Source of the DNA: a virus
Strand: one strand, 5' to 3'
Length of the DNA: 34,979 bases
IMG/VR virus record: IMGVR_UViG_3300030044_000053
Location: 1-34,979 of that record
A program made the translations under genes and the position numbers. Shown piece by piece: positions 1-33,689 of this stretch. Within the stretch, counting starts at the first letter, position 1, and each line of letters opens with the position of its first letter. The notes below the pieces were generated by a model, which saw nothing but the letters and a program-made list of their open reading frames with translations, had not been told where the DNA came from and ran no database searches.

Positions 1-559
1 CGCCGGGAGGCGCAACGCTGGTAGTAGGCGCGGTATCCGCAGGCGCAGGACTTGATGGAGCGGTGTTCGCCGTTACAGAGGAAGCGGGAGCGGCGGGAGA
101 GGAAGTCGCAGGCGCAGATGGCGCGGGCGCAGATGGCGAACTCCCGCCAATCCCCACACCTTCATCCCCAGAAGCCGCAGCGTCCGAGCCAATGCCATTA
201 ACGCCAAGACCGCTAGTTGACGGCGCGTTGCCGCCCGATACTCCAGCAGGCGCGGAGCCGCCTCCAATAGGGTTTTGCACGGCAGCGTTTATTGGCGCGG
301 GAGAAGATGGAGAAGCGGACGGCGCTTGCGTCGAAGCCGCAGCCGTAGGCAACGTCGGGTTTGGGATAGCGTTGCCATTCGGCGTAAACGGACTTGCGCC
401 CGGCTTGATCGGGATTGTCGAAGCCGTTGGCACAGTCCATGACGGGATTTGAACCATGCCATAGCCGGGGAGATAGACCGATCCGCCAGGGGCGCGTTTG
501 ATCCTCTTGGCGATCATGATGGCTTGGCGCATGGCCTTGTCAGGATCAGTCGGGAACAT
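1..559 (-). CDS. Ala/Pro/Ser-rich phage head-region protein, partial (3' end beyond left edge)
   Basis: The frame starts at an ATG at 559 inside the last codons of the portal gene and stays open to the left edge, giving at least 186 residues. The N-terminus (MFPTDPDKAMRQAIMIAKRI) is an ordinary helix. From about residue 45 it becomes low complexity, rich in Ala, Pro, Ser, Thr and Gly, so it is probably disordered. The 14-bp overlap with the portal gene implies co-translation. The position directly after the portal fits a scaffolding, head-completion or linker protein, but no family is recognised and that role is inference. An open frame of 129 codons on the other strand is a by-product of the skewed codon use. 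Confidence 0.75.
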   Translation of the reverse strand, partial: MFPTDPDKAMRQAIMIAKRIKRAPGGSVYLPGYGMVQIPSWTVPTASTIPIKPGASPFTPNGNAIPNPTLPTAAASTQAPSASPSSPAPINAAVQNPIGGGSAPAGVSGGNAPSTSGLGVNGIGSDAAASGDEGVGIGGSSPSAPAPSAPATSSPAAPASSVTANTAPSSPAPADTAPTTSVAPPG

Positions 560-2972
560 TGGGCTTACCCTTCGCCTTGCTCATGGCCTTCAGCTTCTCA
601 CTTTCCAGCGAGCCCTTCGCATCCCGATCCGCAACCTTATGCTCTCCATCAAACGCCATATCGCCCTGATGCTGCGCCAAATCCACCGCCTTGTGCATGT
701 TCTCATGCTGTTGCGTGCTGTTGTGGATCATAATCTCTTTCGCCAAATTCATCGTCGCCAAATGCTCGGCACTCGAACGGTCTGCTTGCTCATTCCTGGC
801 GCGCAACGCCAAATCCGCCTGATCCACGTCGGCAAGCTTGGCCTTCGTATGGGCGTCCATCAAAGCTGTTTTGGCCTTGACGATATCGAGCGGCTGCGTC
901 CCGCCGTCTCCCTTGCCCATATCCATTTGCAGACGAGACTTTTCAAGGTCAATCTTACCCTTGACCTCATCCGACTTGGCTTGAGCCATAATGCCCTTTG
1001 CCTTCGCCTCGTCTAGTTTGGCCTGACCCTCTTGCTGCATCTTGGTAAGCTCTGGCGGCGGCTGACCCATCGCGCTCGGGGGAGCCATGAACTGTTCGGG
1101 ATTGCTAAAGCCTAGCGCCTGAATACAAGCCCGGTCAATCGCAATCGGATCGTACAGCGAAGGCGATTGAGCCTGCAATTCTTTCAGCGCCGCCAACTTC
1201 ATAAGACGCTGTATCTGAGACGCCGTGTTCGGATCGGCTTGCGGAACCAAATTGCAATCGTCCAAAGCTTGTAAGAACGTATCCTCATCCCACTTGCGCG
1301 TCGGCTTCCTATTTTTCTGCCAGAAGCTTTCGGGATGCTCTCGGAAGCACTCAGCCAAGAGTTGCAATTCCGTCGCCTGCGAGGCGTGCATCCGCTTATG
1401 AACGCTGTTCAAAATCTTGGTTGCGCCTTCGATCAACGCAAGCGTGGTTCCCACCGGAGCATCAGATTTGCCTTCTCCGACCGGCATTTCCGCCGTTCCG
1501 CCGACGCGCTGGCCTGTTTCGACCATGTTTTCAATCAACGCCATCAACGAAGGCGCGGACTGCATATTGTAGGGAAGCGGCATTACCGCTTCATTGATCG
1601 GCAGTCCATTTGTTTTGACCTTGGCCGCGCCGCCTGGAGGAACGCGAAGAATGTTTGTGTCTTGCCTCATTCCCATATCGGCGATCAAAAAGCCGGGGAA
1701 GTTGGCATACATGCCCAAGTCCAACAACTCACGCCAAGCGGCTGTTACCGCCATAGTCGTGTTGCCAAGAATGTTGAGCAGGCCAATATCGTAGAAGCCA
1801 AAACCGGGAACGAACGTATATTTAACGAACGTGTCTTTCGCTTCCGGCAGTTCCTTCGTGTCCTCATCGAAATTGCGGACAATCGCCAAAATCTCTTTCG
1901 TCGAAACATCAATCGTCACGCGATACGGAATTTCCAATCCCGTGATCTTGCCTTTAGATTTGTGTTCAAAACTAAGAATATCAAGCTCGCAATAGCACTC
2001 GTAAATTTCACGATCCCGATCATCGGGACGCATTGATGTTTCTGTTACGCCCTGCTGCGCCATCTTCTCGCGCTTGACCGCATCGCGCTCTGCCATCATC
2101 GGCGTATGCAAATCTATATCGCGATAGACGCCTAGAATTTGCAAACGCTTGACGGTCGAAGGCTTCATCATCACGCGATGAGTTACGCGCTTGGCGTTGC
2201 GCAAATCTGTCGCGTCATTGTTGACGATCAAATCCTCTGCGTCCACATGCTCACTGACAGGGCGATTGCGGAGTGGGCAGGAATAGACTTTCTTGAACGC
2301 CGTGCCGCCAAAGCCGAGCATCAGCAACATGCGGTCTGTATCGGGGTAGTATTCTGTAGCCGTGACTGTTAGATAATGATTGAAGTCTTTTTCAAGCGCG
2401 TTCGCCAGCGTGTCTTGGTTGACGGTTCCGTTATTGCTATCATCGCGGATTTTAGCCGGCCCGTCAGTCGGAAGCATTTCGGATCGGGCGTTGGCCTGAA
2501 ACCTAAGCACGGCCTCTTGCAAAAGGGGATGGCGAACTTTGCTCATTCCTTCGACGGGAGCGCCGTCTGCTGGCTGAGACCCGCCTGGGCTTTCCAGACT
2601 TAGCCCGAGCAGGCGAATACCTTTTGCGCGTTCCTCGATCCAATCCTTGCGGCTTGTAATATCGTCCTCGATACCGCGCATTAAGTCTTCGGCGATGCGC
2701 CCTAGTTCGAGTTTGTCGATATCGTCAACTAGGTTATCGAACCATCCAATTTTGCGCTTGGGTTCATCGTTGATCGGCTTGCCGTCCAGGCTGATCGTTA
2801 TCGAGCCGTCCGCGTGTTCGATCTTGATGACGTTGCCGTTGTCATCAACGATAGGCTTATCGCCGCCATTATCTCCGGTTTCCTCGATGATAACGTCAGG
2901 GCCGAGGTCTGGAGTTTGCGGTTGAGGAAACGGTGATCTGATATTTGGCGATAGGCCGGGAGTTAGGGACAA
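546..2972 (-). CDS. Portal protein (head-tail connector), P22-like size
   Basis: This 808-aa protein follows the large terminase, as portals do, and its size matches P22/Sf6-type portals (about 700-800 aa). Portals form the dodecameric ring through which DNA is packaged and ejected. The first 75 residues are acidic and Pro-rich. The core (about 100-580) has portal-like features, for example FNHYLTVTATEYYPDTDRML and the GFGGTAFKKVY segment. From about 630 to the end the protein is long charged helix (many K, E, D, Q, A), like the helical barrel of P22 portals. The start is a TTG at 2972 preceded by AGGA at suitable spacing; the next in-frame Met lies far inside. Portal identity is confident; the barrel comparison is inference. 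Confidence 0.85.
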   Translation of the reverse strand: MSLTPGLSPNIRSPFPQPQTPDLGPDVIIEETGDNGGDKPIVDDNGNVIKIEHADGSITISLDGKPINDEPKRKIGWFDNLVDDIDKLELGRIAEDLMRGIEDDITSRKDWIEERAKGIRLLGLSLESPGGSQPADGAPVEGMSKVRHPLLQEAVLRFQANARSEMLPTDGPAKIRDDSNNGTVNQDTLANALEKDFNHYLTVTATEYYPDTDRMLLMLGFGGTAFKKVYSCPLRNRPVSEHVDAEDLIVNNDATDLRNAKRVTHRVMMKPSTVKRLQILGVYRDIDLHTPMMAERDAVKREKMAQQGVTETSMRPDDRDREIYECYCELDILSFEHKSKGKITGLEIPYRVTIDVSTKEILAIVRNFDEDTKELPEAKDTFVKYTFVPGFGFYDIGLLNILGNTTMAVTAAWRELLDLGMYANFPGFLIADMGMRQDTNILRVPPGGAAKVKTNGLPINEAVMPLPYNMQSAPSLMALIENMVETGQRVGGTAEMPVGEGKSDAPVGTTLALIEGATKILNSVHKRMHASQATELQLLAECFREHPESFWQKNRKPTRKWDEDTFLQALDDCNLVPQADPNTASQIQRLMKLAALKELQAQSPSLYDPIAIDRACIQALGFSNPEQFMAPPSAMGQPPPELTKMQQEGQAKLDEAKAKGIMAQAKSDEVKGKIDLEKSRLQMDMGKGDGGTQPLDIVKAKTALMDAHTKAKLADVDQADLALRARNEQADRSSAEHLATMNLAKEIMIHNSTQQHENMHKAVDLAQHQGDMAFDGEHKVADRDAKGSLESEKLKAMSKAKGKPNVPD

Positions 2973-3278: not shown

Positions 3279-4922
3279 TCATACTGCATACAAAGGAGGG
3301 GGAGAACGCCCAATATGTCTCATACTCTCGCCAATCTCCGCAAGACGCTCTGGCGCTCTCGTAAGCAAACCCGCATCGCGAAGAAACCTAAGCGCCTGTG
3401 AACACGTATCGACAAGATCGTCATGCTTTCCCTTTGGAAAGGTCCGAACCTGACTAATCACCATCTCAGCCCATTCTTTATCCGGCGCATGAACCGTGCC
3501 ATCGGCGAAGATATGCTGCACACTATACAGCCGAGACAGCTTGTCGCCGCCCTTCGGATCGATCAACTGCACGCCAAATTTTTCGTGTCCGACCGCTCGG
3601 CGAAGCTCTTGCGCAAGACTTATCCCCGCCGCCTTGCTTTCGACGAGTAGCAAATCGACCGCAAACCGCTTGCAGTCTTTCGAGACTTGCAAAACCAAAT
3701 CAGGGAACTCAAGCCTCTTTTGCCATGCGTAGAGCATGATAACTTGCGGGGTTTTCTCGCCATACTCGCGCGGCTCAAGCTCACTCAATCTACCATATCG
3801 ACTTGAGGCTTGCGTCGCAACCGCTGTCCGCTCAGACGAAAACACGCCCCAAATCGTCATCGCGCTAAAGTCGTTTTCCTGCTTGGTCGTGTAGGCGGTA
3901 TCGAGCGAGGCGCAGACAAAATCCAGCGGCGGATATTTGTCCTCTGTCCAAAGCTGCCACCATTCGTCCTTGATGACGCCGCCACCGCGAGGCGCAGGCT
4001 CTTGGGCGAACTGCGCGGCTGCACCATATGGTCCTAGCGAAGCCTCATCACGATTTACTACGTCGAGCGGAAACCGCTCTGGGAAAAACAATTCGCCCTC
4101 GACCTCGCGCGGATCGCACGTTCCCAACAGCGTCGGGCCAGCTCGGCGCGGATCGAACCGCATCGGCAACATCACATGATCCCAAAGGCCGGGCGTCTTT
4201 TTGTTTAACTCGTCTAGGATGACGCCAGATATGTCTCCTTCGTGAAGGCGCTGCATAATGCAAATAATCACGCTTTTTATCGGATCGTTAAGGCGCGTCG
4301 GGATGGCTTCAAGAAAGTTGTTCACTTCCGATTGCATCGAAACTTCTGACGTGGCGCTCTCGACCGAATGAGGATCGTCAATCATCACGTAATCGGCTCG
4401 AATGCCTGTCAGCGAGCCAATGGCGGTTGCAATGCGAAAGCCCGTCGCCTCGTTGGCAAAGTTCAGCTTGCCGCGTTGATCCTGACTGATCTTGACCTTA
4501 TCGCCCCAACGAGCTTGAAACCAATCCGACGTAACCAGCGTCCGCATTTTGTAGGCGTCGCGAGCGGAAAGATTTTCAATCTTATGAGCCGCGCAAAGAA
4601 AACGCATGTGCGGCTTGTTTCGCGGCCCCCAAACCCAGGCCGGAAAGAACACGTTGAGCAGGAGGCTTTTCATACCGCCTGGCGGCAGATTGATTAGCAG
4701 GCGGTTATATGGCCTCCCGTTGACTTCTACGCCTTCGTCAATCGCCTCCAGGTGTTCGGCGATCATGTCCAAATGCCAGTTGTGGACATAAGGCGCGGAC
4801 GGTTCTAGGACGTGCCATGCGCGTTTGATGAAGTAGACGAGCGATCTTTCGCATCGGTCGCGTTCTAGGTCGAATAGCATTCGGGTTGGATTGACGCCGA
4901 ACGGAAGTTCAATCTTGGACAA
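3279..4922 (-). CDS. terL: Terminase large subunit (packaging ATPase and nuclease)
   Basis: A 547-aa two-domain packaging motor. The ATPase domain has a Walker A at about 79-86 (LPPGGMKS), a Walker B with catalytic acids at about 179-186 (VMIDDPHS) and a coupling region near 218-226. The RNase H-like nuclease domain has its acidic residues at D341 (SLDTAYTTK), E428 (LLLVESK) and D501/D502 (KHDDLVDT). It drives ATP-dependent DNA translocation through the portal and cuts the concatemer. It sits downstream of the small terminase and upstream of the portal. An upstream in-frame stop restricts the start to TTG 4922 or ATG 4880; TTG is used here because it preserves the short overlap with the preceding gene. 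Length is typical for Terminase_6-type proteins. Confidence 0.93.
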   Translation of the reverse strand: MSKIELPFGVNPTRMLFDLERDRCERSLVYFIKRAWHVLEPSAPYVHNWHLDMIAEHLEAIDEGVEVNGRPYNRLLINLPPGGMKSLLLNVFFPAWVWGPRNKPHMRFLCAAHKIENLSARDAYKMRTLVTSDWFQARWGDKVKISQDQRGKLNFANEATGFRIATAIGSLTGIRADYVMIDDPHSVESATSEVSMQSEVNNFLEAIPTRLNDPIKSVIICIMQRLHEGDISGVILDELNKKTPGLWDHVMLPMRFDPRRAGPTLLGTCDPREVEGELFFPERFPLDVVNRDEASLGPYGAAAQFAQEPAPRGGGVIKDEWWQLWTEDKYPPLDFVCASLDTAYTTKQENDFSAMTIWGVFSSERTAVATQASSRYGRLSELEPREYGEKTPQVIMLYAWQKRLEFPDLVLQVSKDCKRFAVDLLLVESKAAGISLAQELRRAVGHEKFGVQLIDPKGGDKLSRLYSVQHIFADGTVHAPDKEWAEMVISQVRTFPKGKHDDLVDTCSQALRFLRDAGLLTRAPERLAEIGESMRHIGRSPPPLYAV

Positions 4923-23712: not shown

Positions 23713-23734
23713 AGTCGTCACTCCTAAGTTGGAG

Positions 23735-23766: not shown

Positions 23767-23787
23767 AAGTCATAGGGAGGAAACGCC

Positions 23788-24024: not shown

Positions 24025-24031
24025 GGCGCGA

Positions 24032-24060
24032 ATGATCCGACAAACTAAAATTCGTGTCAA
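24032..24060 (-). promoter_or_regulatory. Strong leftward promoter of the HTH repressor
   Basis: TTGACA (24055-24060, minus strand), a 17-bp spacer and GATCAT (24032-24037). The expected start is about 24025, one base from the repressor ATG (24024). Confidence 0.65.
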
Positions 24061-24104
24061 TGATTATTTTCGTTTTGGACGCAAAAAAATATTCGGAAAG
24101 CCTA

Positions 24105-24133
24105 TTGACGGGAATAATTCGCCGTGAGAATAT
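24105..24133 (+). promoter_or_regulatory. Rightward early promoter
   Basis: TTGACG (24105-24110), a 17-bp spacer and GAATAT (24128-24133). A perfect 9-nt palindrome, GAATAATTC (24112-24120), lies in the spacer and is a candidate operator for the divergent HTH repressor. It drives the run of plus-strand genes from 24162 to 30938. Confidence 0.6.
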
Positions 24134-24161
24134 GCATCTATCGAAAGCGATGGAGGCGAAG

Positions 24162-24353
24162 ATGGAAAAGAAAATTGCCGCTCTGAAAGCCGCTTACGCA
24201 GCCAAGAATGGCGCGAAGCTCCGCAGGGCCGCCGAGGCGGTTGTCGCTCACGACCGCAAGCATCCTTTCGCTTCTCTCTGCGGTGGCATCGAGGCTTGCG
24301 AGACAGTCCGTCTCGCCAAGCGGATTGTCGAAGCTCCCGCACTCCCGTTCTGA
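24162..24353 (+). CDS. 63-aa basic small protein, first gene of early operon
   Basis: ATG 24162 has a GGAGG 5 bp upstream; earlier in-frame ATGs overlap the promoter -10 and are unlikely. MEKKIAALKAAYAAKNGAKL gives a positively charged helix, followed by a C-terminal part with CGGIEAC. It could bind nucleic acid by charge, but no family is recognised. Confidence 0.65.
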   Translation: MEKKIAALKAAYAAKNGAKLRRAAEAVVAHDRKHPFASLCGGIEACETVRLAKRIVEAPALPF

Positions 24354-24363
24354 GGATACGGCC

Positions 24364-24492
24364 ATGACCAAGTTCCGTTGCTACCGCGCCTCATCAGACG
24401 AAACCCGCATTTTCGACACCCGCGACGAGGCTTTGCGCTTCTGCCTTCGCGAAGGTGACTTGAACCGCCTCTGGACGCTGGAGGTGATCTGA
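24364..24492 (+). CDS. 42-aa small phage protein
   Basis: MTKFRCYRASSDETRIFDTR is followed by DEALRFCLREG and ends WTLEVI: a strand-turn-helix-strand pattern of a compact domain. GAGGA lies 7-8 bp before ATG 24364. The next gene starts 2 bp after its stop. Function unknown. Confidence 0.6.
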   Translation: MTKFRCYRASSDETRIFDTRDEALRFCLREGDLNRLWTLEVI

Positions 24493-24494
24493 TC

Positions 24495-24731
24495 ATGCCA
24501 ATGAGCGCCCCCACATTCTGCCAGACGTGCGGCGCGCGGGATGACGCGACAGAGCGCGGGCTTTCATATGACCACATAGCGGTCATGAACGCCCTAGAAA
24601 TGTTCGTTACTCAGTGGAACGCATTCGGGCCAAATTCTGAGGCAGGCGACGCTTTCAAGAAAGTTAGAGCCGCCGCCGTGAAAGCTCTTGGAACAGACGC
24701 CCCGAAATACAGGGCCGATCTTTTCAAATGA
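24495..24731 (+). CDS. Zinc-motif small protein with CxxCGARDDATERGL start (copy A)
   Basis: A 78-aa protein. An N-terminal CQTCGARDDATERGL module is shared with the gene at 25200, including 23 identical bases; the remainder is helical and unrelated to the partner. The Cys pair could bind zinc together with another chain. GGAGGTGATC precedes ATG 24495, and ATG 24501 is a possible alternative. Function unknown. Confidence 0.7.
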   Translation: MPMSAPTFCQTCGARDDATERGLSYDHIAVMNALEMFVTQWNAFGPNSEAGDAFKKVRAAAVKALGTDAPKYRADLFK

Positions 24732-24739
24732 TCCAACTA

Positions 24740-24756
24740 GGCGCGGTTTGCGCGCC
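24740..24756 (+). other. GC hairpin between small early genes
   Basis: GGCGCG (24740-24745) and CGCGCC (24751-24756) form a 6-bp stem with a 5-nt loop in the 42-bp gap after copy A of the zinc-motif gene. No U-tract follows, so it is probably an RNA processing or stability element, or simply cassette debris. Confidence 0.3.
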
Positions 24757-24773
24757 ACAACACCGGGGATGAC

Positions 24774-24980
24774 ATGGAAGACGACTACGGACCGATCCGG
24801 GGCGCTCGCGATGTTTGGGCCTTCACGGAACACACGCCCCGCGACCGCGCCATCTGCCGCAAAGACACCACTACCGACGCCGATATTCAGCGGATTATGG
24901 CGCGGCGGACGCCGACCCTGCCGCTTTCCGCCGAAGTCCGCGCCGCAGCCCGCGCGCGCGCCGATCAACTCCCGCATTGA
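24774..24980 (+). CDS. 68-aa small phage protein
   Basis: MEDDYGPIRGARDVWAFTEH is followed by TPRDRAICRKDTTTDADIQR and a basic C-terminus. ATG 24774 has a GGGGATGA-type site upstream. It lies between the two zinc-motif genes. No domain recognised. Confidence 0.55.
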   Translation: MEDDYGPIRGARDVWAFTEHTPRDRAICRKDTTTDADIQRIMARRTPTLPLSAEVRAAARARADQLPH

Positions 24981-24990
24981 GGATCATGCC

Positions 24991-25194
24991 ATGTACGATA
25001 ATCTCACTCCCGATACGGTCGCCGACCTTGTGGCGACGCTGCGCTATCTGCGCCGCCAGTACGAAATCAACGGGCGACTTGACGGACTGAATATGCGGCA
25101 CGTCGAGAAGTCTCTGGCGCGCGTGGAAATTGAGGTGATGGTTCAGCGCGCGTTCGCCCATGCCGCGCGCATCGCGATCCCGGCTACGGAGTAA
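24991..25194 (+). CDS. 67-aa helical small phage protein
   Basis: MYDNLTPDTVADLVATLRYL is followed by RRQYEINGRLDGLNMRHVEK, predicted all-helical. ATG 24991 follows GAGGATCATGCC, which echoes the GAGGATACGGCC before the gene at 24364. The reading frame extends upstream without an independent start. Function unknown. Confidence 0.6.
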   Translation: MYDNLTPDTVADLVATLRYLRRQYEINGRLDGLNMRHVEKSLARVEIEVMVQRAFAHAARIAIPATE

Positions 25195-25199
25195 TCGGC

Positions 25200-25469
25200 A
25201 TGAGCGAGCAATACACCTACTGCCCGACATGCGGAGCGCGTGATGACGCGACAGAGCGCGGGCTGGCGTTTGATGTTGTTGCTTTGCAGGAACGCGAACT
25301 GCGGTATTTCCGCGCTCTCACTGAGATCACCGCGTTTGCTCCACTAACCAAGCCGGAAGATTTCGGGAACACCGGCAACTGCGACGACGCTGCCTACTAC
25401 GCCAGATACAGCGCCTATTACCACTGCGGACAGGTTGCGAAGATTGCGCTTACGGGAGAACAGACATGA
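25200..25469 (+). CDS. Zinc-motif small protein with CxxCGARDDATERGL start (copy B)
   Basis: An 89-aa protein: YCPTCGARDDATERGLAFD, then a longer helical part with Tyr-rich DAAYYARYSAYYHCGQ. It shares its first ~25 residues with the gene at 24495 and diverges after. Its stop overlaps the next ATG (ATGA). The Cys/His content suggests metal binding. Function unknown. Confidence 0.7.
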   Translation: MSEQYTYCPTCGARDDATERGLAFDVVALQERELRYFRALTEITAFAPLTKPEDFGNTGNCDDAAYYARYSAYYHCGQVAKIALTGEQT

Positions 25470-25711
25470 TCCGGCCGACTGCAAAACACAGCAAAGAGGG
25501 ATGGAGTTTTAACGAGTTTTGGCGTCGTTTGAACGACACAATGCGTCATGCCGGACATGCGCCATCCGACCATGAGGAAGCCGTCGTTTCCTACAACGTT
25601 GGGGAAACTGTTGAGGAAGCTGCGGCACGGATTGGCGCTCGCTATCAGGAAGTTCGTGACGGAGTTCGCCCGCCAGTAAGCGCATTTCAGGACGTGGGAG
25701 GCGAACCATGA
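25466..25711 (+). CDS. 81-aa small phage protein
   Basis: MIRPTAKHSKEGWSFNEFWR starts at an ATGA overlap with the zinc-motif gene, and its stop overlaps the next gene in the same way. It is mainly helical, with ETVEEAAARIGARYQEV in the middle. Tight overlap on both sides supports translation. Function unknown. Confidence 0.65.
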   Translation: MIRPTAKHSKEGWSFNEFWRRLNDTMRHAGHAPSDHEEAVVSYNVGETVEEAAARIGARYQEVRDGVRPPVSAFQDVGGEP

Positions 25712-26043
25712 GCCGCTGGTCAACCCACTACGCCACCATCTACCCGCAAGTTTCGTTGCAGGATCGCGACACGCTCGAACTTGTAGCCCGCGTGAAGTTC
25801 AAGTTTCTCCCTGGGTCGCCGGAAACGCCGCCTTGCTATTCCCACGGCGGATTGCCTGCCGATGGATGCGAAGTTGATGCGGTCGAAGTCGTCGGGCTTG
25901 AAATGGATTTCGGGGGCGGCAAACTCGAACCATTGCCGCTGACGAAAGGGCTTTGCGATTGGATCGTGGACACTATCGACAAAGACACACTCGCGGTAAG
26001 CGCACAAGAAGATTTCGATATTGAACGAAGCAACGCATACTAA
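25708..26043 (+). CDS. 111-aa acidic small phage protein
   Basis: MSRWSTHYATIYPQVSLQDR is followed by beta-rich sequence (VARVKFKFLPGS; VEVVGLEMDFGGG) and an acidic helical end. It looks like a compact alpha/beta protein. The ATGA overlap with the gene before it implies coupling. The boundary sequence just downstream (26046-26061) recurs after the following gene. Function unknown. Confidence 0.65.
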   Translation: MSRWSTHYATIYPQVSLQDRDTLELVARVKFKFLPGSPETPPCYSHGGLPADGCEVDAVEVVGLEMDFGGGKLEPLPLTKGLCDWIVDTIDKDTLAVSAQEDFDIERSNAY

Positions 26044-26045
26044 CA

Positions 26046-26061
26046 GGAGTAACTCAGATGG
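26046..26061 (+). repeat. 16-bp start-site repeat, copy 1 (before DUF7666-like gene)
   Basis: GGAGTAACTCAGATGG, including ribosome-binding site and ATG; identical to 26759-26774. Confidence 0.88.
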
Positions 26062-26765
26062 AAAAAACAATCAAATCAATCAAAGGGTTTGATAAAAACT
26101 TGTCATGCCGTGGTTTCAAATTCGAGGCTGGCAAGTCATACGAAGTCACTGGCGACATAAAAGCGTGTCAAAATGGCTTCCACGCATGCCCAACTGACGA
26201 ACACCCACTTTCGGCGTTTGAATATTATTCGCCGGCAACATCGGTATTTCATGACGTCGATCAGTCAGGGAAAACCGACAAAGACGGCAACAAAATCGCA
26301 TCCGCCAAGATCACAATCAACGCGGAAATCTCACTCGGCGACTTGACAAAACGCGCGGTTGAATGGGTTTTTAAGCGAGCGAAGTGGTCGGAAGGCCCGG
26401 TCGCAACTGGCCATAATGAAGGAGCTACGGCAAGCGGCGATCATGGCGCGGCCACGGCAAGCGGCGATCATGGCACGGCTACGGCAAGCGGCTATCAGGG
26501 CGCGGCCACGGCAAGCGGCGATCAGGGCGCGGCCACGGCAAGCGGCTATCAGGGCGCGGCTACGGCAAGCGGCAATCAGGGCACGGCTACGGCAAGCGGC
26601 CTGGGCGGGAAGGTCAAGGGCACCGCCGGCAACGCGATGTTCGCCGTCGAGCGAGACGATAATTTCAACATCGTCAGCGTCGCGTGCGGGATAGCCGGTA
26701 AAGACGGCGTGCCGGCTGATGCGTGGCTCGTCTGCAAAGACGGAAAACTAACTATTTCGGAGTAA
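26058..26765 (+). CDS. DUF7666-like protein with 9-residue ATASG repeats
   Basis: A 235-aa protein. Residues 1-115 carry a GFDKNLSCRGFKFEAGKSYE start and an ACQNGFHAC motif typical of the DUF7666-like domain found in phages and mobile elements. Residues about 118-180 are seven 9-residue units of the type G[D/Y/N][H/Q]G[A/T]ATAS (27-bp period). A distinct C-terminal cap follows (GNAMFAVERDDNFNIVSVAC). The repeats probably form a beta-solenoid-like stack. An identical 16-bp start-site sequence lies before this gene and before the next one. Function unknown. Confidence 0.8.
   Translation: MEKTIKSIKGFDKNLSCRGFKFEAGKSYEVTGDIKACQNGFHACPTDEHPLSAFEYYSPATSVFHDVDQSGKTDKDGNKIASAKITINAEISLGDLTKRAVEWVFKRAKWSEGPVATGHNEGATASGDHGAATASGDHGTATASGYQGAATASGDQGAATASGYQGAATASGNQGTATASGLGGKVKGTAGNAMFAVERDDNFNIVSVACGIAGKDGVPADAWLVCKDGKLTISE
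26409..26597 (+). repeat. 27-bp coding tandem repeat, seven units
   Basis: Seven in-frame 27-mers starting GGC and ending GGCAAGC. The first unit is degenerate; the rest differ at a few positions (GAT/TAT/AAT, CAT/CAG, GCG/ACG). The close similarity of units suggests recent expansion or gene conversion. Confidence 0.92.
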
Positions 26766-26774
26766 CTCAGATGG
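26759..26774 (+). repeat. 16-bp start-site repeat, copy 2 (before ParB-like gene)
   Basis: The identical 16 bp at the next gene start. The repeat also contains the stop codon of the DUF7666-like gene. Confidence 0.88.
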
Positions 26775-27571
26775 CCGCCAGAGACGAATTTGCGCGCGGA
26801 CAAACGACGGTCATGATCGATCCGCGCCGTGTCAGGATCAAAGCCGGATTGAATATCCGCGACATGACAACGGAAGCTTTCAAAGCCGGCATTGAAGAAC
26901 TGGCAAATTCAATTGAAACGCAAGGATTTCTCAACTCGCATCCTATCGAATATAGCAAGGATGATGAAGGCTATTACGTCACGGCAGGCCACCGGAGATT
27001 GCTCGCCAGCCTGCGAGTTATCGAGCGCGGCAACGTCGAACTATTCGCCATCCCGGCGCTTCCCGAGGCCAAGGGAACCAAATTAGTTGACCGCGATATA
27101 AACCTGATTATATCCAACAATGGCGAGCGATTGACGCTCGCGGAAGAAGGCGAAGGATTTAAGCGCCTCATGGGTCACGGATTGACGATCCAACAAATTT
27201 CACAGCGGTGCGGCAAATCCATAACTCATATCAACAATGCTCTTGATTTTTTATCCGCTCCCGCCGAAGCTCACGCATTGGTTGGACAGGGGAAAGTTTC
27301 GGCGACGCTGGCGGCAAAAACAATTCGCAAGGAAGGCGCTAAAAAGGGCGTCGAGACGTTGCAAAAAGCCGTCGAGACGGCGACCGCATCGGGAAAGGCT
27401 AAAGCAACCGAACGGCATATCGAGCCGCGTATTGCCACGACGTTCGATCCTGGCCCGGCGTGTATCGCGCTAGTTGAGCGGCTTGCCAAAGAGAGCGACG
27501 AAAACGTATCTCAGGCTTTTGCATATTTTATCGTCGAAGCGCGCGAAATCATTTCCAAAATATCGGAGTGA
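26771..27571 (+). CDS. ParB/Srx-fold protein (ParB-like)
   Basis: A 266-aa protein with a ParB N-domain (about 13-110, including GHRR at 73-76, the CTP-binding patch) and an HTH at about 138-158 (LTIQQISQRCGKSITHINNA), then a helical C-terminus. ATG 26771 has GGAG 8 bp upstream. No ParA ATPase or parS-like array is seen, so plasmid-style partition is unlikely. Phage ParB-like proteins can be nucleases, regulators or CTP-dependent DNA clamps; the exact role is open. Confidence 0.8.
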   Translation: MAARDEFARGQTTVMIDPRRVRIKAGLNIRDMTTEAFKAGIEELANSIETQGFLNSHPIEYSKDDEGYYVTAGHRRLLASLRVIERGNVELFAIPALPEAKGTKLVDRDINLIISNNGERLTLAEEGEGFKRLMGHGLTIQQISQRCGKSITHINNALDFLSAPAEAHALVGQGKVSATLAAKTIRKEGAKKGVETLQKAVETATASGKAKATERHIEPRIATTFDPGPACIALVERLAKESDENVSQAFAYFIVEAREIISKISE

Positions 27572-27576
27572 AGGCT

Positions 27577-27792
27577 ATGCTATCTCACCCGCTTACCAAC
27601 GATGACAAAATGGCTATGCTCAATCGCGCCCTGCCGCTTTGTCCATTAGAGGCGCTACAATACACGCCATTGGCGCGAACGTGGTTAGTTCGTCACGGCG
27701 TTCCGGTTTACGAAATTGGGGCAACTTTGGTTTTGCGCGCCATACATGATGAGTTTGATCGCAGGGTGCATCTGTCTGTAGGAGAAGGTTGA
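27577..27792 (+). CDS. 71-aa small phage protein
   Basis: MLSHPLTNDDKMAMLNRALP is followed by a helical, slightly basic protein ending in HLSVGEG. ATG 27577 has GGAG 8 bp upstream; a GTG at 27568 overlapping the ParB-like stop is the alternative. The stop overlaps the next ATG. Function unknown. Confidence 0.65.
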   Translation: MLSHPLTNDDKMAMLNRALPLCPLEALQYTPLARTWLVRHGVPVYEIGATLVLRAIHDEFDRRVHLSVGEG

Positions 27793-28085
27793 TGACCGAC
27801 TATCTGATCGAAGCCTACAACACCGAAATGTCCGAGATACAAAATCGCGAAATTCAGGCATTGTTTGAAGCGCTGGAACTTTATGTTTCTGCGCAGACAT
27901 ATGCCACGCATCAAGCCGTGCGCGAGCGTTTCAACGCAGGCGTAAGGCTGGCGGCAGCGATGTCGCAACGCGACCATGAGTACCACAATGGGCGCACTCC
28001 CGCACCAGAGGATCAGAAACCTGAGCCCGATACCGTTCTTACGTTTCCGTCTATCGTGACGCGCCAGCGTAGCGAAGTGATGTAA
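27792..28085 (+). CDS. 97-aa helical small phage protein
   Basis: MTDYLIEAYNTEMSEIQNRE and the following ~60 residues are strongly helical, followed by a Pro-rich tail. The ATG overlaps the previous stop (TGATG), so it is probably translated by re-initiation. No family recognised. Confidence 0.65.
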   Translation: MTDYLIEAYNTEMSEIQNREIQALFEALELYVSAQTYATHQAVRERFNAGVRLAAAMSQRDHEYHNGRTPAPEDQKPEPDTVLTFPSIVTRQRSEVM

Positions 28086-28111
28086 TCAACATATCAGTTA
28101 GGATATCTATC

Positions 28112-28276
28112 ATGTTCACATACGGCAAATTCACCGTGTCGATGATTTCCGCCGAGCAGGTAGTCCGCCGCGTTCTACTCGAAGCAAAGCGCACAGGCGA
28201 CGATACATTCGCCGCGCAGTTATTGCCAGAAATGCTCAGCGCCGCACAGGACGTTCAGGGGAGGCGGCTGCGATGA
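28112..28276 (+). CDS. 54-aa small phage protein
   Basis: MFTYGKFTVSMISAEQVVRR is followed by LLEAKRTGDDTFAAQLLPEM, mainly helical. The ATG at 28112 follows GGATATCTATC, a weak site. Its stop overlaps the MazG-like gene as ATGA, supporting its reality. Function unknown. Confidence 0.55.
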   Translation: MFTYGKFTVSMISAEQVVRRVLLEAKRTGDDTFAAQLLPEMLSAAQDVQGRRLR

Positions 28277-28542
28277 GCTACCCCGTGGTATTGAACGCTA
28301 CAGAAGCAAGGGCCATTGAGTTTGCCAATGAACTTGAACGCGCCCGGATAAAGTTTGCCAAGATGGCATCCGCCCACGAAGGCTACGCCATCATCGCAGA
28401 GGAATTTGACGAACTTTGGGATATCGTCAAACAGAAACAAACGCAGCGTGATTATGCGGCGTTGCGCAAGGAGACGGTCCAACTCGGCGCAATGGTCCTC
28501 GCGTTTCTAGTGGAAATCGTTGACGAGGGGAACCGACGATGA
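28273..28542 (+). CDS. MazG-like all-alpha protein
   Basis: An 89-aa protein. EGYAIIAEEFDELWDIVKQK and a later RKETVQLGAMVLAFLVEIV are typical of small phage proteins related to MazG-type nucleotide pyrophosphohydrolases, in which the EE-x-x-[E/D] helix binds Mg2+. The motif here (AEEFDEL) keeps three acidic positions. Possible roles are dNTP pool sanitation or (p)ppGpp hydrolysis; the similarity is from pattern only. Overlaps both neighbours. Confidence 0.6.
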   Translation: MSYPVVLNATEARAIEFANELERARIKFAKMASAHEGYAIIAEEFDELWDIVKQKQTQRDYAALRKETVQLGAMVLAFLVEIVDEGNRR

Positions 28543-28748
28543 CCACCTACGAACGCGGCGAGCGCGTGAAGCCGATCTCCCCGAACCGCAGCGACGCCCC
28601 GGACCCTTCGATACGCATTGGCCGCGACCGATGGCCGCCGTCGCGGGACGGCGCAGCCCTGGCGACGGAACTGGCGCTGCTGCCGCTGGCGTTGGCGCTC
28701 AACGCGGCGGGCGTGTTCGTGGAGCTTTGGTTCAGGAGGCGACCGTGA
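28539..28748 (+). CDS. 69-aa small membrane protein
   Basis: MTTYERGERVKPISPNRSDA is hydrophilic, then a hydrophobic helix (ATELALLPLALALNAAGVFV) leads to a basic RRRP end. It starts at an ATGA overlap and its stop overlaps the next GTG. GC content here is visibly higher than in the middle of the window. Function unknown. Confidence 0.6.
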   Translation: MTTYERGERVKPISPNRSDAPDPSIRIGRDRWPPSRDGAALATELALLPLALALNAAGVFVELWFRRRP

Positions 28749-28924
28749 CCCCAACCGCCGCTGACAATCTACTCCTACTCGCCGGAGCGCTCGCGGGCGG
28801 CGGCATGGTTGCGCTGGTCTGGATTTGGTCAACCGATCCGGTGAACCGCGACGGGCGCTACGCCACGGCGCTCTTGGTCGTCATCGTCATTATCATCGCT
28901 TACTTCGTGAGGTTCCTGCCATGA
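28745..28924 (+). CDS. 59-aa two-helix membrane protein
   Basis: Starts at GTG 28745 inside a GTGA overlap. VTPTAADNLLLLAGALAGGG continues through two hydrophobic helices separated by a polar loop (STDPVNRDGRYA). The long upstream frame has no plausible start. The two consecutive tiny membrane proteins (28539 and 28745) may work together. Its stop overlaps the 11-codon remnant at 28921. Confidence 0.6.
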   Translation: MTPTAADNLLLLAGALAGGGMVALVWIWSTDPVNRDGRYATALLVVIVIIIAYFVRFLP

Positions 28925-28940
28925 CCCACCCCACCGATCC
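28920..28940 (+). repeat. 21-bp gene-start repeat, copy 1 (before tad2)
   Basis: Matches 29210-29230 at 20 of 21 positions. It starts CATGACCCACCCC and ends CGATCC. Confidence 0.88.
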
Positions 28941-28956
28941 TATCAAAGGAGTGTAA
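28921..28956 (+). pseudogene. 11-codon orphan start of the gene at 29211
   Basis: ATG-ACC-CAC-CCC-ACC-GAT-CC (MTHPTDP) copies the start of the gene at 29211 (MTHPADP) and then diverges to a stop at 28956. It looks like the stranded 5' end left when tad2 entered between the membrane-protein gene and the 29211 gene. An alternative is a short leader peptide coupling translation into tad2. Confidence 0.5.
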
Positions 28957-28959
28957 ATC

Positions 28960-29214
28960 ATGAATATCGGAGAAGCAGTGGCGGCAATGAAGCAGAACTA
29001 CCGCGTTCGTCGCGCCGGTTGGAACGGCAAAGGGATGCACATTTACCTGGAGGACGATTTAGAAAGCACAATCGAGGGGCGCAATCCGCGCCTTCGTGAC
29101 GGGCGCATGTATCATTCGTACATCGTGCTTCTGACAGCGGGAGGGACGTTCCAGCCCGGCTGGAACGCATCGACGCCGGACCTGTTGGCGGATGATTGGG
29201 AGATAGTAACATGA
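28960..29214 (+). CDS. tad2: DUF2829 / Tad2-type Thoeris anti-defence protein
   Basis: An 84-aa protein matching the DUF2829 family: MNIGEAVAAMKQNYRVRRAG, WNGKGMHIYLE, then YIVLLTAGGTFQPGWNAS and LLADDWEIV. Characterised members (Tad2) sequester the cyclic ADP-ribose-type signal made by ThsB and so block Thoeris abortive infection. Length and all conserved blocks fit. It has its own AAAGGAG 8 bp before ATG 28960, and a near-identical 21-bp gene-boundary sequence brackets it. Binding specificity for a given signal isomer cannot be told from sequence. Confidence 0.85.
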   Translation: MNIGEAVAAMKQNYRVRRAGWNGKGMHIYLEDDLESTIEGRNPRLRDGRMYHSYIVLLTAGGTFQPGWNASTPDLLADDWEIVT

Positions 29215-29230
29215 CCCACCCCGCCGATCC
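29210..29230 (+). repeat. 21-bp gene-start repeat, copy 2 (after tad2)
   Basis: The second copy, forming the functional start of the gene at 29211. Confidence 0.88.
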
Positions 29231-29576
29231 CGTTGCCGCCATGCGAGAGGCGGGCTGGTCAGTTGCAGTTCATAATGACTACCGGCTCAACGGCGAGCGG
29301 ATGACGTTCTGGTTGTGGACGCATCCAAGCGGACAGTGGGTCAAAGGGGAAGGCGAGACAGACGAGGTTGCGCTTGGAGAGTGCTTACGCGCCATCCCCA
29401 TCCCCGCCGCCCAGCCAGACCCCCGCGACGAGGCGCTGCGGCTCGCGCGGGAGGCGTTGGAAATAATCGCGGGTCGCCGCCAATGTATCGACAACCTTAT
29501 GGGAAATACTGACGTAGCACTAGCCGCCCTCGCCGCCATCGACGCGCTGAGGCGCGAAGCGCCGTTGAAGGAGTGA
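29211..29576 (+). CDS. 121-aa phage protein downstream of tad2
   Basis: MTHPADPVAAMREAGWSVAV, then a Trp-rich middle (MTFWLWTHPSGQWVKGEGET) and a helical C-terminus (DEALRLAREALEIIAGRRQC). ATG 29211 overlaps the tad2 stop (ATGA). The C-terminal helix pattern is common in small phage proteins. Function unknown. Confidence 0.65.
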   Translation: MTHPADPVAAMREAGWSVAVHNDYRLNGERMTFWLWTHPSGQWVKGEGETDEVALGECLRAIPIPAAQPDPRDEALRLAREALEIIAGRRQCIDNLMGNTDVALAALAAIDALRREAPLKE

Positions 29577-29581
29577 TGGGG

Positions 29582-29983
29582 ATGAGCGAGCTAGAAATTC
29601 ACGCGGTTCCGAAGAACCTATACTACCACGAAGTCGCTTACGTGCGTGGCCTTAAAGCTCGCGCCGAGAAGGCGGAACGCGAACGGGATGAGGTAATAAC
29701 CGCCGCGAATGCTCGCATTGCGGAGTTGGAGAAGGACGCCGCGCGTTGGCGCGCGCTGGTCACAACGTTCGGCCCAGAAATGGACGTCTCCACTCCGCAC
29801 CGTCCGCACACCATGCTGATCGCCATCGACACAGAGGGGTGCGAGGTCCGTGAGGATGGGAATCTTGATTTCAAAGAAACGCTTGAGCGCGCGTTGGACG
29901 ACGAAATTAAGAGACAATCCGCCGCCGCCGCCGCCGCCGCCGCCTCCGCCGCAGACCTCCGCAAGGCGGGAGATGGGATATGA
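29582..29983 (+). CDS. Coiled-coil phage protein with poly-Ala run
   Basis: A 133-aa protein. A coiled coil (about 22-60: RAEKAERERDEVITAANARI) is followed by a folded part and a C-terminal SAAAAAAAASAAD stretch encoded by (GCC)8. AAGGAG lies 8 bp before ATG 29582; ATG 29576 is an alternative. Its C-terminal DLRKAGDGI region shares 14 bp (CCTCCGCAAGGCGG) with the end of the gene at 30441. Function unknown. Confidence 0.65.
   Translation: MSELEIHAVPKNLYYHEVAYVRGLKARAEKAERERDEVITAANARIAELEKDAARWRALVTTFGPEMDVSTPHRPHTMLIAIDTEGCEVREDGNLDFKETLERALDDEIKRQSAAAAAAAASAADLRKAGDGI
29921..29944 (+). repeat. (GCC)8 trinucleotide repeat
   Basis: Eight perfect GCC codons encoding poly-Ala inside the coiled-coil gene. 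This tract is prone to slippage. It also creates a long open Pro- or Gly-rich frame in other frames, which is not a gene. Confidence 0.9.
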
Positions 29984-30042
29984 CAGGCATTCCCCACGGA
30001 CCCATCCCCATGACAGCGCCAGCCACAAGGACGATAGACTGA
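29980..30042 (+). CDS. Possible 20-aa linker peptide ORF
   Basis: ATG 29980 overlaps the preceding stop (ATGA), and its TGA overlaps the next ATG (TGATG). MTGIPHGPIPMTAPATRTID has no recognisable feature. It may simply keep ribosomes moving from the coiled-coil gene to the gene at 30042. Confidence 0.35.
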   Translation: MTGIPHGPIPMTAPATRTID

Positions 30043-30302
30043 TGAGCGAACAATCATACGAACTCGGCGAACTGCTTTACAGACATCTCGCGACTGAGAT
30101 TGATGAAGCGGAACTCGCGATCAGAATCATGGAGCGCGCTCTGATGATGAAGCGGAGCGACGGCAAGATTTCGCGCGACCTATTGGCAGAGTCGCGAGCG
30201 CTTATCGTTGCGAGCGGAGACGATTTCCCGTTTGACGACATGGCGCGCATCGCAATCGAGTATTTCCGCGAGTGCATCGAGAAGGGACATCGGCCCGCAT
30301 GA
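30042..30302 (+). CDS. 86-aa helical small phage protein
   Basis: MSEQSYELGELLYRHLATEI is followed by DEAELAIRIMERALMMKRSD, an all-helical acidic protein. The start overlaps the 20-codon frame and the stop overlaps the decayed HTH gene (ATGA). Function unknown. Confidence 0.6.
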   Translation: MSEQSYELGELLYRHLATEIDEAELAIRIMERALMMKRSDGKISRDLLAESRALIVASGDDFPFDDMARIAIEYFRECIEKGHRPA

Positions 30303-30469
30303 CCCCGCCAGCCTATTCGCCCCGCGATCTGGCGGAACACTGGCAATGCTCGGAGCGCCATGTGCGCAACCTTAATACGAAAAGGACTTAGCCGAGTGGG
30401 AACGGAAAGCCCCTCATCATTTGCAGCAAGGATGCGCCCCATGACAGACACACCCACACCCGGATTTGA
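30299..30469 (+). pseudogene. Decayed helix-turn-helix (AlpA/excisionase-like) gene
   Basis: The first 30 codons (MTPPAYSPRDLAEHWQCSER, then HVRN) match the start of AlpA/excisionase-type HTH proteins and then hit TAG at 30391. In the +1 frame the expected continuation LIRKG appears, as if one T was inserted near 30372. Back in the first frame after the stop, SGNGKPLIICSKDAP looks like the family's C-terminal strand. Two compensating indels plus a stop indicate a dead gene. A 30-residue functional peptide cannot be excluded. Confidence 0.6.
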
Positions 30470-30938
30470 TTTGGAGAGGATGCGAGACGCGGCGAAGAGG
30501 GCGACGCCGGGGCCTTGGACGCGCGAGAAACCGCCTGTAGGCGATGGGGGATTTCGCGAGGGATGCGCTGTCGCCGCGACCTATGGCCGGCAGACAATCT
30601 ACGCCAACCCGCCGGGAGGGTCATTCCCGAGTTTCGATGCTGACCATATCGCCGCGTCCAACCCCGCCTCCGTCCTCGCGCTGATCGCCGCCTATGAGGC
30701 AGAGAAGGAACGGGCGGATGAGAATTTCAAAGATGCAAAAGCCTATTCTGATGCGGCTAAGATGTGGCGTGATGAATGTGAGCTTGAGCGTGGGCATGTT
30801 TCCCATTTACGCGCCCAACTTGGCGCGATCACCGACCAGCATGCCGCGCACGGATGGCGGACGGCAGATGACGCGGCAATGCGCGTTGAGCGCGACGCCC
30901 TCGCCGAAAACCTCCGCAAGGCGGTCACTAAGGCTTAG
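30441..30938 (+). CDS. Ea22-like phage protein with ATPGPW motif
   Basis: 165 aa from ATG 30441 (AAGGA 8 bp upstream). RATPGPWTREKPP is followed by DADHIAASNPASVLALIAAY and a coiled-coil end, the usual layout of Ea22-like early phage proteins of unknown role. It shares the x-TPGPW theme with the gene at 10466. It is the last gene of the rightward operon and its 3' end overlaps the converging gene by 11 bp. Confidence 0.75.
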   Translation: MTDTPTPGFDLERMRDAAKRATPGPWTREKPPVGDGGFREGCAVAATYGRQTIYANPPGGSFPSFDADHIAASNPASVLALIAAYEAEKERADENFKDAKAYSDAAKMWRDECELERGHVSHLRAQLGAITDQHAAHGWRTADDAAMRVERDALAENLRKAVTKA

Positions 30939-31203
30939 CCTGCGACCAAAACTGATGCACGCCCCAGCCAATCCCAGCCGCTAGGGTCACGACAATCGAC
31001 GCCATAACGGCGAGTGTCTTCCTGATCCCGCTCCACTCGTTAAGCGCAACAGTCCATTCGTTCGACCGATCAATGAGGGCGTCCAAGCTCTTGTCGGTGC
31101 GCTGCATAAATTCGTTGTGCCGGCGCTCGTGGTCGCCGAACTTTTGTTCGAGTAGGGCGATTCTCATCCGAAGATCCTCCAAGACCTCAACCCTATCTGC
31201 CAC
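30928..31203 (-). CDS. Coiled coil plus C-terminal membrane helix (XhlA-like lysis-region protein)
   Basis: A 91-aa protein: MADRVEVLEDLRMRIALLEQ begins a coiled coil to about 55, then a transmembrane helix (LAVMASIVVTLAAGIGWGVH) and a short end. This topology resembles hemolysin XhlA-type proteins in lysis cassettes. It is the last gene of the leftward lysis group and converges with the early operon. Role in lysis is inferred from shape and place. Confidence 0.65.
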   Translation of the reverse strand: MADRVEVLEDLRMRIALLEQKFGDHERRHNEFMQRTDKSLDALIDRSNEWTVALNEWSGIRKTLAVMASIVVTLAAGIGWGVHQFWSQAKP

Positions 31204-31215
31204 GGTTGCGGCCCC

Positions 31216-31437
31216 TTAGTTTGCGACGGGAGCGAAGCAGACTATGCCGCCCCACCAGAAGTGGCAGGCTAGGAACCCAACCACCAGCCCCGCCACAAAC
31301 GGCAACGGGGGCCACGCCGCCGAGAAGTCCCATACGGTGCGGCTAAGGGTCTGGCGTCCTGTGCGCAGCGCATAAGCCTCGAAGCAGCCGAAGCTCACCG
31401 CGATGAACACCACCCATCCTACCCAGAATAGCTCCAT
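31216..31437 (-). CDS. Two-helix membrane protein, holin candidate
   Basis: A 73-aa protein: MELFWVGWVVFIAVSFGCFE is helix 1, a polar loop with TGRQTLSRTVWDFSAAWPPL, and helix 2 (FVAGLVVGFLACHFWWGG). The size, two helices and lysis-gene neighbourhood suit a class II holin, but the loop is conserved-looking and the family is generally annotated only as a membrane protein. Confidence 0.65.
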   Translation of the reverse strand: MELFWVGWVVFIAVSFGCFEAYALRTGRQTLSRTVWDFSAAWPPLPFVAGLVVGFLACHFWWGGIVCFAPVAN

Positions 31438-31438
31438 T

Positions 31439-32056
31439 CTACGGGGTCCCGGTTGCGCTTGGGGTCGGCGTTGCGGCCGGTGTCAGTAGTGGCGCGACCG
31501 TCGTCGTTGACGCGGGCGAGGGCGTCGGCACCGCATACCCCGCCGGCTGCGTGCCGAGGGTCACACTCGGGATCTTCGCGCATAGGGTCTGCAACGTGAT
31601 CGGCGGGGGCACGCCCAACCCCATTTGTGCGATGCCGCCCAGCAAATCCCCCGAGACGGTCTGACATGCGCTCGTCTGACATAGCGCCTTCGCTGCCGAT
31701 GTCGCCAATCGCAGAGCCTCGGCGTCACTGGCCGCCTTCAGAGTCAGCGGGATCGGGTGCGCCTTCAGCACGCCGACAAACGTCTCGGCAGCTTTCCAAC
31801 ACGCATACCCGGTCCAGTCCTGCAATGCTGGGTTTTGAATCGCCAACGTCTCGGCGGCAGTGAGATCTCCGCCTACCCAATTTGCGATGTCCGTGAAGAC
31901 GTTCGAGCCCCCGATCAGACTGCCTCCAGGCTTCACGCCATCGACAGTCACCCCATTGGCATTCGCCGCATTCTGCTTCAGCAGGTTTCCAAGCGGGTCT
32001 GCCGCGGCAGACGTCATGATCGCAAGGCCGATCGCCACGCTGATTAGGGTTCTCAT
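31439..32056 (-). CDS. Exported protein of the lysis cassette
   Basis: A 205-aa protein with a signal peptide (MRTLISVAIGLAIMTSAAAD, cleavage near residue 19). GAGG precedes ATG 32056, which overlaps the upstream stop. The mature part has four Cys (YACW, ALCQTSACQT, TLCAK) and ends in a Pro/Thr/Ser-rich tail (TPSPASTTTVAPLLTPAATP). It probably acts in the periplasm; a spanin-like function is a possibility but it lacks an obvious coiled coil. Confidence 0.7.
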   Translation of the reverse strand: MRTLISVAIGLAIMTSAAADPLGNLLKQNAANANGVTVDGVKPGGSLIGGSNVFTDIANWVGGDLTAAETLAIQNPALQDWTGYACWKAAETFVGVLKAHPIPLTLKAASDAEALRLATSAAKALCQTSACQTVSGDLLGGIAQMGLGVPPPITLQTLCAKIPSVTLGTQPAGYAVPTPSPASTTTVAPLLTPAATPTPSATGTP

Positions 32057-32292
32057 TTCGGGTACCTCGGATCTTGATAGCCTTGCGGCGCGACGACGGT
32101 GGCGTTCTCTGGCACCTTCTTCATATTCCAGTGCATCCACACACCGACCGCCAAGAACCCCAGGTCAACGAGGTCCGTCGCAAGCGCGGCGATGGAATCC
32201 GCCCCAAGGTTCTGATGCAGCGCCCCCGCCATACCGGACAGCGCCATAATGGCGATCTTGATTGCTAGTGACTTCTGCTCGTCAGTGTTCAT
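32053..32292 (-). CDS. Putative holin-like membrane protein (79 aa)
   Basis: MNTDEQKSLAIKIAIMALSG is followed by a short loop and a second hydrophobic helix (LVDLGFLAVGVWMHWNM), then a polar tail. It resembles small phage holins of the Pam3-gp28-like type; that comparison is tentative. AAGGAG lies shortly before ATG 32292. Confidence 0.6.
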   Translation of the reverse strand: MNTDEQKSLAIKIAIMALSGMAGALHQNLGADSIAALATDLVDLGFLAVGVWMHWNMKKVPENATVVAPQGYQDPRYPK

Positions 32293-32314
32293 TTCCGTTC
32301 TCCTTTCAGTCTTA

Positions 32315-32434
32315 CTACTTGCCGCCGCGCCACATATAGGCGACGACGATCATCACTGCGCAGACGCAGCCGCCGCCGATCACGATGCAGGCCGCGAAAT
32401 AGGCGGCGGCGAAGGCGTCGGGGATCGGAGGCAC
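32315..32434 (-). CDS. 39-aa single-pass membrane protein
   Basis: GTG 32434, 7 bp after AAGGA, gives VPPIPDAFAAAYFAACIVIG and a transmembrane helix continuing to VVAYMWRGGK, with a TAG-TAA double stop. It fills the gap between the lysozyme-like gene and the holin candidate. Function unknown; small lysis-timing proteins are a possible comparison. Confidence 0.55.
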   Translation of the reverse strand: MPPIPDAFAAAYFAACIVIGGGCVCAVMIVVAYMWRGGK

Positions 32435-32438
32435 GGCG

Positions 32439-33664: not shown

Positions 33665-33689
33665 TTTAGGTTGCCTCAGTTGCGGCGTA

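Follow-up and report, generated by a model that had tools for sequence, protein, structure and literature searches.

Gene content and sequence of the locus

The DNA under analysis, henceforth the window, is a stretch of 34,979 nucleotides from a virus record. The Tad2-like gene, its signals and its neighbours are the following:

28960..29214, + strand: intact ORF for a Tad2-like protein of 84 aa, P0001 (Pfam, PDB sequence matches, model)
28945..28951, + strand: ribosome-binding-site-like AAAGGAG, 8 nt ahead of the ATG (consensus match only)
24054..30938, + strand: about 21 packed small ORFs, the Tad2 gene included (hand count of the ORF list)
26058-26765: DUF7666 protein (Pfam)
26774-27571: ParB-like protein, ParB HTH (Pfam)
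30438-30938: Ead/Ea22-like protein (Pfam, 27.6 bits with a cut-off of 27)
29211..29576, + strand: next ORF, 121 aa; its ATG overlaps the Tad2 stop codon
28920..28940, + strand: 21-nt direct repeat of family D12, copy 1 (CATGACCCACCCC...), directly ahead of the Tad2 gene
29210..29230, + strand: copy 2 of the same repeat, 20/21 identical, where the next gene starts

The ORF starts with ATG at 28960 and stops with TGA at 29212-29214, exactly where a sequence-only reading of the window had placed a candidate Tad2 gene. Its product matches the Pfam family PF11195 (Tad2-like, formerly DUF2829) over positions 1-73 of 73, with an E value of 1.2e-22 and a score of 80.6 bits against a curated cut-off of 25. 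The claim that the DUF2829 blocks are complete and the length normal was borne out as well (84 aa in P0001, 89 aa in SPO1 Tad2).

A homologue from another phage contig, L002, shares 90% amino acid identity with P0001, and 199 of 252 nucleotides are identical. Because 40 of the 53 nucleotide differences fall at third codon positions, and dN (0.081) is far below dS (1.68), the gene is under purifying selection and not a chance ORF. When the 7.7 kb of L002 taken for comparison were matched to the window by blastn (E ≤ 1e-5), a single match was detected, at 28960-29220, which is the gene plus six bases. The compared DNA common to both phages is therefore this gene alone, as expected for an exchangeable single-gene cassette, which the P0001 gene may be. 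In PHROGs, the best matches of P0001 were two families annotated as function unknown, aligned at profile positions 110-195 of 211 and 89-171 of 172; the Tad2 domain is thus often the C-terminal portion of a longer protein. Altogether, the identification of P0001 as a Tad2 protein is sound, and the protein belongs to an already known family.

The sequence-only reading had counted about 20 small genes around the Tad2 gene, a fair estimate, and had regarded them as early genes and candidates for other counter-defence functions. The early character of the block would follow from its position. When ten neighbours were compared with Pfam, three scored above the cut-off (DUF7666, ParB HTH and Ead/Ea22), none of which is named as anti-defence, and no anti-defence function was named for 18 window ORFs searched against PHROGs, two of them overlapping versions of one stretch. 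Apart from the three Pfam families, the window ORFs compared with Pfam and PHROGs yielded no function by name, and for the 121-aa ORF neither database gave a match at E ≤ 0.01. Hence, the case for the neighbours as counter-defence genes is guilt by association, a purely positional argument.

The 21-nt repeats that flank the Tad2 gene might mark the insertion of a cassette. This is put forward as no more than a possibility because other small genes share starts too (repeat families D3 and D13) and no empty site was found: when such a site was sought through relatives of the next gene, one relative was detected (L014, 33%), and no Tad2 was found in L014. The 60-nt stretch described below and repeats D12 and D13 suggest that small genes of the block share their 5' ends. 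Promoter-like and terminator-like sites were no commoner than in shuffled sequences (3 compared with 3.4, and 7 compared with 9.5).

Other repeats were also observed. Two small ORFs, at 24512-24571 and 25214-25273, share a 60-nt stretch (83%) that encodes CGARDDATERGL. The DUF7666 protein contains 27-nt repeats, with a 9-aa unit of the ATASG type, at 26376-26627; their number is unsure because G003, a contig of the same phage, breaks there. An alanine- and tryptophan-rich repeat protein with NAAWATAD-type units lies at 9630-10337.

Fold, pocket region and family placement

A search of PDB sequences with P0001 (E ≤ 1) retrieved eight distinct sequences, seven of which were Tad2/AcrIIA7 (8kbi, 8wjd, 8v3e, 9eib, 9kzr, 8sme and 8wje); the eighth was unrelated (E 0.72). 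A monomer model made with AlphaFold2 from a 75-row alignment had a mean pLDDT of 89.5 and a pTM of 0.77, the weakest residues being 31-50. All 24 PDB matches found by Foldseek at E ≤ 0.001 were Tad2/AcrIIA7 chains, with a best E value of 2.4e-7 and TM-scores, normalised to query length, of 0.70-0.86. Structural comparison with VIA-align gave Z values of 11.3-12.6 for ten Tad2 entries, and the next fold, unrelated, scored 5.0. Structure prediction, which had been proposed as a check on the candidate, thus recovered the Tad2 fold, with confident matches to solved Tad2 structures only, and the model shows P0001 folding as a Tad2 protomer.

The 75-row alignment included 58 of 80 loci of the viral collection, the others being dropped by eye as near-duplicate or distant, and 3 of the 6 loci of a tblastn set that included Methylobacterium terricola, where the rest were dropped likewise; two rows, L089 and L169, differ at the end only. 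P0001 keeps the seven residues that are invariant in these chosen rows, P0001 itself among them: R18, G20, W21, N22, W68, D79 and W80. The designation as candidate Tad2 therefore held for family membership, fold and conserved residues, as judged by PF11195, the PDB matches, the model and the alignment.

According to the available text of PMC12043709, Tad2 pockets sit between protomers, and their walls are formed by the beta1-beta2 loop, the beta3-beta4 loop, strand beta4, the beta4-alpha3 loop and helix alpha3. The first pocket-lining stretch of P0001, AGWNGKGM, is typical of the family, and the WNGKGM loop is intact. The stretch after W68 is atypical: it reads NASTPDLL, compared with LASQ(T/A)D in most relatives. 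When the named elements are mapped onto the P0001 model, this region appears to be pocket-lining. In the alignment, 66 of the 75 rows have Q72, and the residues of P0001 are uncommon: N69 occurs in 10 rows and T72 and P73 in 6 each. The full NASTPDLL motif is present in five rows, two of which are one sequence. At the position equivalent to 72, SPO1 Tad2 (which binds gcADPR) and SptTad2 have Q, and MoTad2 (His-ADPR) has V. Given T72, P73 and N69 in a loop and helix described as pocket-lining, the ligand of P0001 may differ or may have been lost. With so few cases, the changes at positions 69, 72 and 73 are a lead on ligand specificity and not a test of it.

A tree of 78 rows was built from few columns (90), and 18 of its 74 inner branches are open. 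In this tree, P0001 falls into one group with L002, a Methylobacterium terricola locus and a Verrucomicrobia MAG contig (99/97), and a Proteobacteria MAG contig lies one step outside (99/90). The M. terricola locus has the same sequence as viral contig L089. The three characterised proteins in the tree, SPO1 Tad2, MoTad2 and SptTad2, all fall outside the P0001 branch, SPO1 being a long branch whose place is unsure; HgmTad2 was left out of the tree.

Comparison with known relatives yields a mixed picture. SPO1 Tad2 (gp34.65; 8sme/8smf/8smg) resembles P0001 in fold, in the invariant residues and in the spacing of two tryptophans (47 and 46 residues), and in the SPO1 record its gene, too, is one of a series of small genes. 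However, the aligned identity is 35%, the pocket wall reads PSQTD instead of ASTPD, and the protein sits elsewhere on the tree. MoTad2 of Myroides odoratus (8v3e, and 9eib with hisADPR) is similar in fold and spacing (47 and 46) and, like P0001, has a residue other than Q at the site that corresponds to position 72 (V in MoTad2, T in P0001), yet it also shows 35% aligned identity and a separate place on the tree. HgmTad2/AcrIIA7 and SptTad2 (8kbi-8kbk, 8wjd) share the fold and rank first in both Foldseek and VIA, the VIA rank being a tie because their Z values are within 1 of other Tad2 entries; unlike P0001, they have a central segment 13-19 residues longer. Another candidate Tad2-like protein from a phage that infects an alphaproteobacterium is P015 of Sinorhizobium phage AP-20-A, described in the available text of PMC13299392; it has 97 aa, compared with 84 aa in P0001, and the likeness is one of description only.

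Tad2 homologues are plentiful in the viral collection, where at least 571 were confirmed among at least 600 candidate stretches. Among named phages, 188 of 50,697 records matched P0001 by tblastn (E ≤ 1e-5), all with less than 60% identity. Seven of these matches are Rhizobium phage records, and a Tad2 match in Rhizobium phage RHph_N2_6 (MN988543.1) is annotated as DUF2829; despite these records, PMC13299392 (June 2026), in its available text, claims the first Tad2-like domain in a rhizobiophage.

An apparent second Tad2 gene in the same phage population

Other contigs of the same phage were found through its terminase. The features that bear on this comparison are listed below:

3279..4922, − strand: terminase large subunit, the query that led to other contigs of the phage
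546..2972, − strand: portal protein (SU10-type)
G003 16801-17070 (−) = L017:16172-16441 (+): P0002, a further Tad2-like protein of 89 aa, encoded beyond the window
L028:6402-6989 and 6986-7324, 3' of the terminase: Tad2 pair, the first N-extended and diverged (WSGR, not WNGK)
L029:11780-12487, 3' of the terminase: N-extended Tad2, 235 aa

Five viral contigs (G001-G005) carry a terminase 100% identical to that of the window. The longest, G003 (44,962 bases), is 100% identical to the window over 27-21681 and 99.5% identical over 21682-26600. It extends beyond the left end of the window and carries a second Tad2 gene there, about 1.8 kb 3' of the end of the portal gene (G003/L017). The product, P0002, for which a 42-row alignment was made, matches PF11195 with an E value of 9e-24, and its model has a pLDDT of 84.1; again, the PDB matches at E ≤ 0.001, 24 in number, consist entirely of Tad2/AcrIIA7 chains. 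The gene is found in three of the five contigs (G002, G003 and G004), and the other two, G001 and G005, of 4.8 and 5.9 kb, end before its place is reached.

P0001 and P0002 are 39% identical and belong to separate supported groups that lie far apart in the tree. The origin of the two genes by recent duplication was therefore rejected. The same phage population thus appears to carry a second, distantly related Tad2 gene by its particle-building genes. As no single contig spans both loci, the case for one phage with two Tad2 genes depends on the roughly 26.6 kb that G003 and the window have in common. The stretch 28500-29600 had no match in six records of other contigs of the phage, an absence that is uninformative because the longest contig, G003, ends inside a repeat near window position 26600.

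Tad2 domains were detected in other terminase loci too. A Tad2-domain ORF is present in 15 of 45 such loci, near-duplicates counted, and the 30 loci without one include many that are short. The order of genes in L028 is terminase, N-extended Tad2, Tad2, one more ORF and portal; in L029, the Tad2 gene sits between the terminase and an ORF whose start resembles the L028 portal. A PF11195 search of 46 records, 34 of which came from the 45 terminase loci, gave matches in 24, five of them with two or more hits. All five belong to the terminase group of the window, one (G012) has two terminases, and they are probably near-duplicates of one lineage. In named phages, P0002 as query (E ≤ 1e-3) detected 297 Tad2 places in 295 records. 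Two copies per phage are rare yet precedented, since Staphylococcus phage SpaA1 has two places. A search of open-access literature from 2022 on found no account of two Tad2 copies, which is weak evidence of absence.

A published study, in its available text, reports that Thoeris senses phage capsids (PMC12578639), and it would consequently be well timed for a phage to encode a sponge among its head-packaging genes. The major capsid protein of the phage could not be named; a 318-aa candidate has no Pfam or PHROG match. One speculation, to which we give a rather low probability, is that the phage deploys two Tad2 sponges, unrelated by recent duplication: an early one encoded by an exchangeable single-gene cassette of the NASTPDLL branch and a late one encoded within the terminase-portal module, possibly directed to different signals. 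The late sponge would then be made when the capsid proteins that can trigger Thoeris appear, and the ligand of the NASTPDLL branch may be a signal that is new for Tad2.

Host, signal and mode of action

No isolate phage near-identical to window positions 22000-34979 was found, nor was any relative of the window terminase detected in GTDB genomes. In named phages, the best terminase match is a phage from a spring (53.7%), followed by phages of Paracoccus, Roseobacter and Rhizobium, and also of Aeromonas and Shewanella. Because these matches are mixed, an alphaproteobacterial host is at best probable. Among named cellular organisms, Methylobacterium terricola has the nearest relative of P0001 (59%, tblastn). 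Among 298 genomes of the family of M. terricola, SIR2-associated STALD was detected in two and ThsA_Macro in three (one partial match); four of these five effector loci were inspected, and all four have an adjacent ThsB_TIR gene. In 385 genomes of its class, STALD was found in one and ThsA_Macro in two (one partial match). Neither STALD nor ThsA_Macro was found in the M. terricola genome itself. The search for Thoeris in likely hosts, advised along with the candidate, was thus positive for the family of M. terricola and negative for M. terricola; by STALD and ThsA_Macro counts, Thoeris is available but rare in the groups sampled.

The best-supported mechanism, and probably the correct one, is that P0001 is a phage Tad2 sponge for the Thoeris signal; the case is built on sequence, model and analogy. 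P0001 would be expressed early in infection, as suggested by the position of the small-gene block, and by analogy with solved relatives it would assemble as a homotetramer with two pockets between protomers. The tetramer would hold, not degrade, an ADP-ribose-type signal made by the host TIR (ThsB) protein. With the signal held, the Thoeris effector would stay off and the infected cell would not be shut down. Which signal is bound (gcADPR, His-ADPR or other) cannot be told from the P0001 sequence.

The central segment bears on signal choice. The GWN tryptophan is separated from the second landmark tryptophan by 46 residues in P0001 and by 47 in SPO1 Tad2 and MoTad2; the values for the 75 rows extend from 31 to 69, with a median of 50. 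In cyclic-dinucleotide binders, the same spacing is 59 (SptTad2) and 65 (HgmTad2, derived from chain positions in the PDB sequence match), so the long central insertion of the HgmTad2/SptTad2 type is absent from P0001. The available text of PMC12043709 ties the cyclic-dinucleotide site of Tad2 to the long insertion, and P0001 probably lacks that site. The available text of PMC11722364 reports that SPO1 Tad2 does not bind 3'3'-cGAMP. Because of its short central segment and the behaviour of SPO1 Tad2, P0001 would be expected to act on Thoeris-type signals only.

These observations weigh against the idea that P0001 is a Tad2-fold sponge for another nucleotide signal, be it a cyclic dinucleotide of CBASS or a so far undescribed ADP-ribose conjugate, and that it acts on a non-Thoeris defence. 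That relatives bind cyclic dinucleotides (8wjd with cGG; 8kbk with 1',2'-cADPR and cGG), that the NASTPDLL wall is unusual and that Thoeris is rare among the sampled groups would all fit; however, the central segment is shorter than in the cyclic-dinucleotide binders, and SPO1 Tad2, with its similar spacing, fails to bind 3'3'-cGAMP; we regard this explanation as unlikely.

Another possibility is that the Tad2 fold has been turned to a different phage role, for example gene regulation, without sequestering a signal. A match to phrog_643, 'transcriptional regulator' (1.5e-6), points in this direction, and in relatives Tad2 domains adjoin terminase and portal genes, also in N-extended forms. This role is nevertheless quite improbable for P0001, whose conserved residues are intact and whose stronger PHROG matches (phrog_1048, phrog_872 and phrog_30130) are all annotated as function unknown. 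Least credible is inhibition of type II CRISPR-Cas in the manner of AcrIIA7: the PDB entries 8kbi, 8kbk and 9kzr of the HgmTad2 line carry that name and Escherichia phages Louie and Huey label a P0002 homologue 'anti-CRISPR protein', but this name stems from the HgmTad2 line, whose central segment is longer, and solved structures of the fold hold nucleotide signals, as stated in the PDB titles.

Signal sequestration by a Tad2 sponge thus remains our preferred interpretation. Beyond membership in a known family, the uncharacterised branch and the second copy add some interest. The P0001 branch is supported, excludes the three characterised members of the tree and shows an altered motif in what is described as a pocket-lining part of the protein; for these reasons, P0001 may serve as a small test case for the residues that determine the Tad2 ligand. 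In turn, a second Tad2 gene lies beside head-packaging genes in this phage and in some of its terminase relatives, an arrangement that points to counter-defence possibly being timed to coincide with structural protein production.
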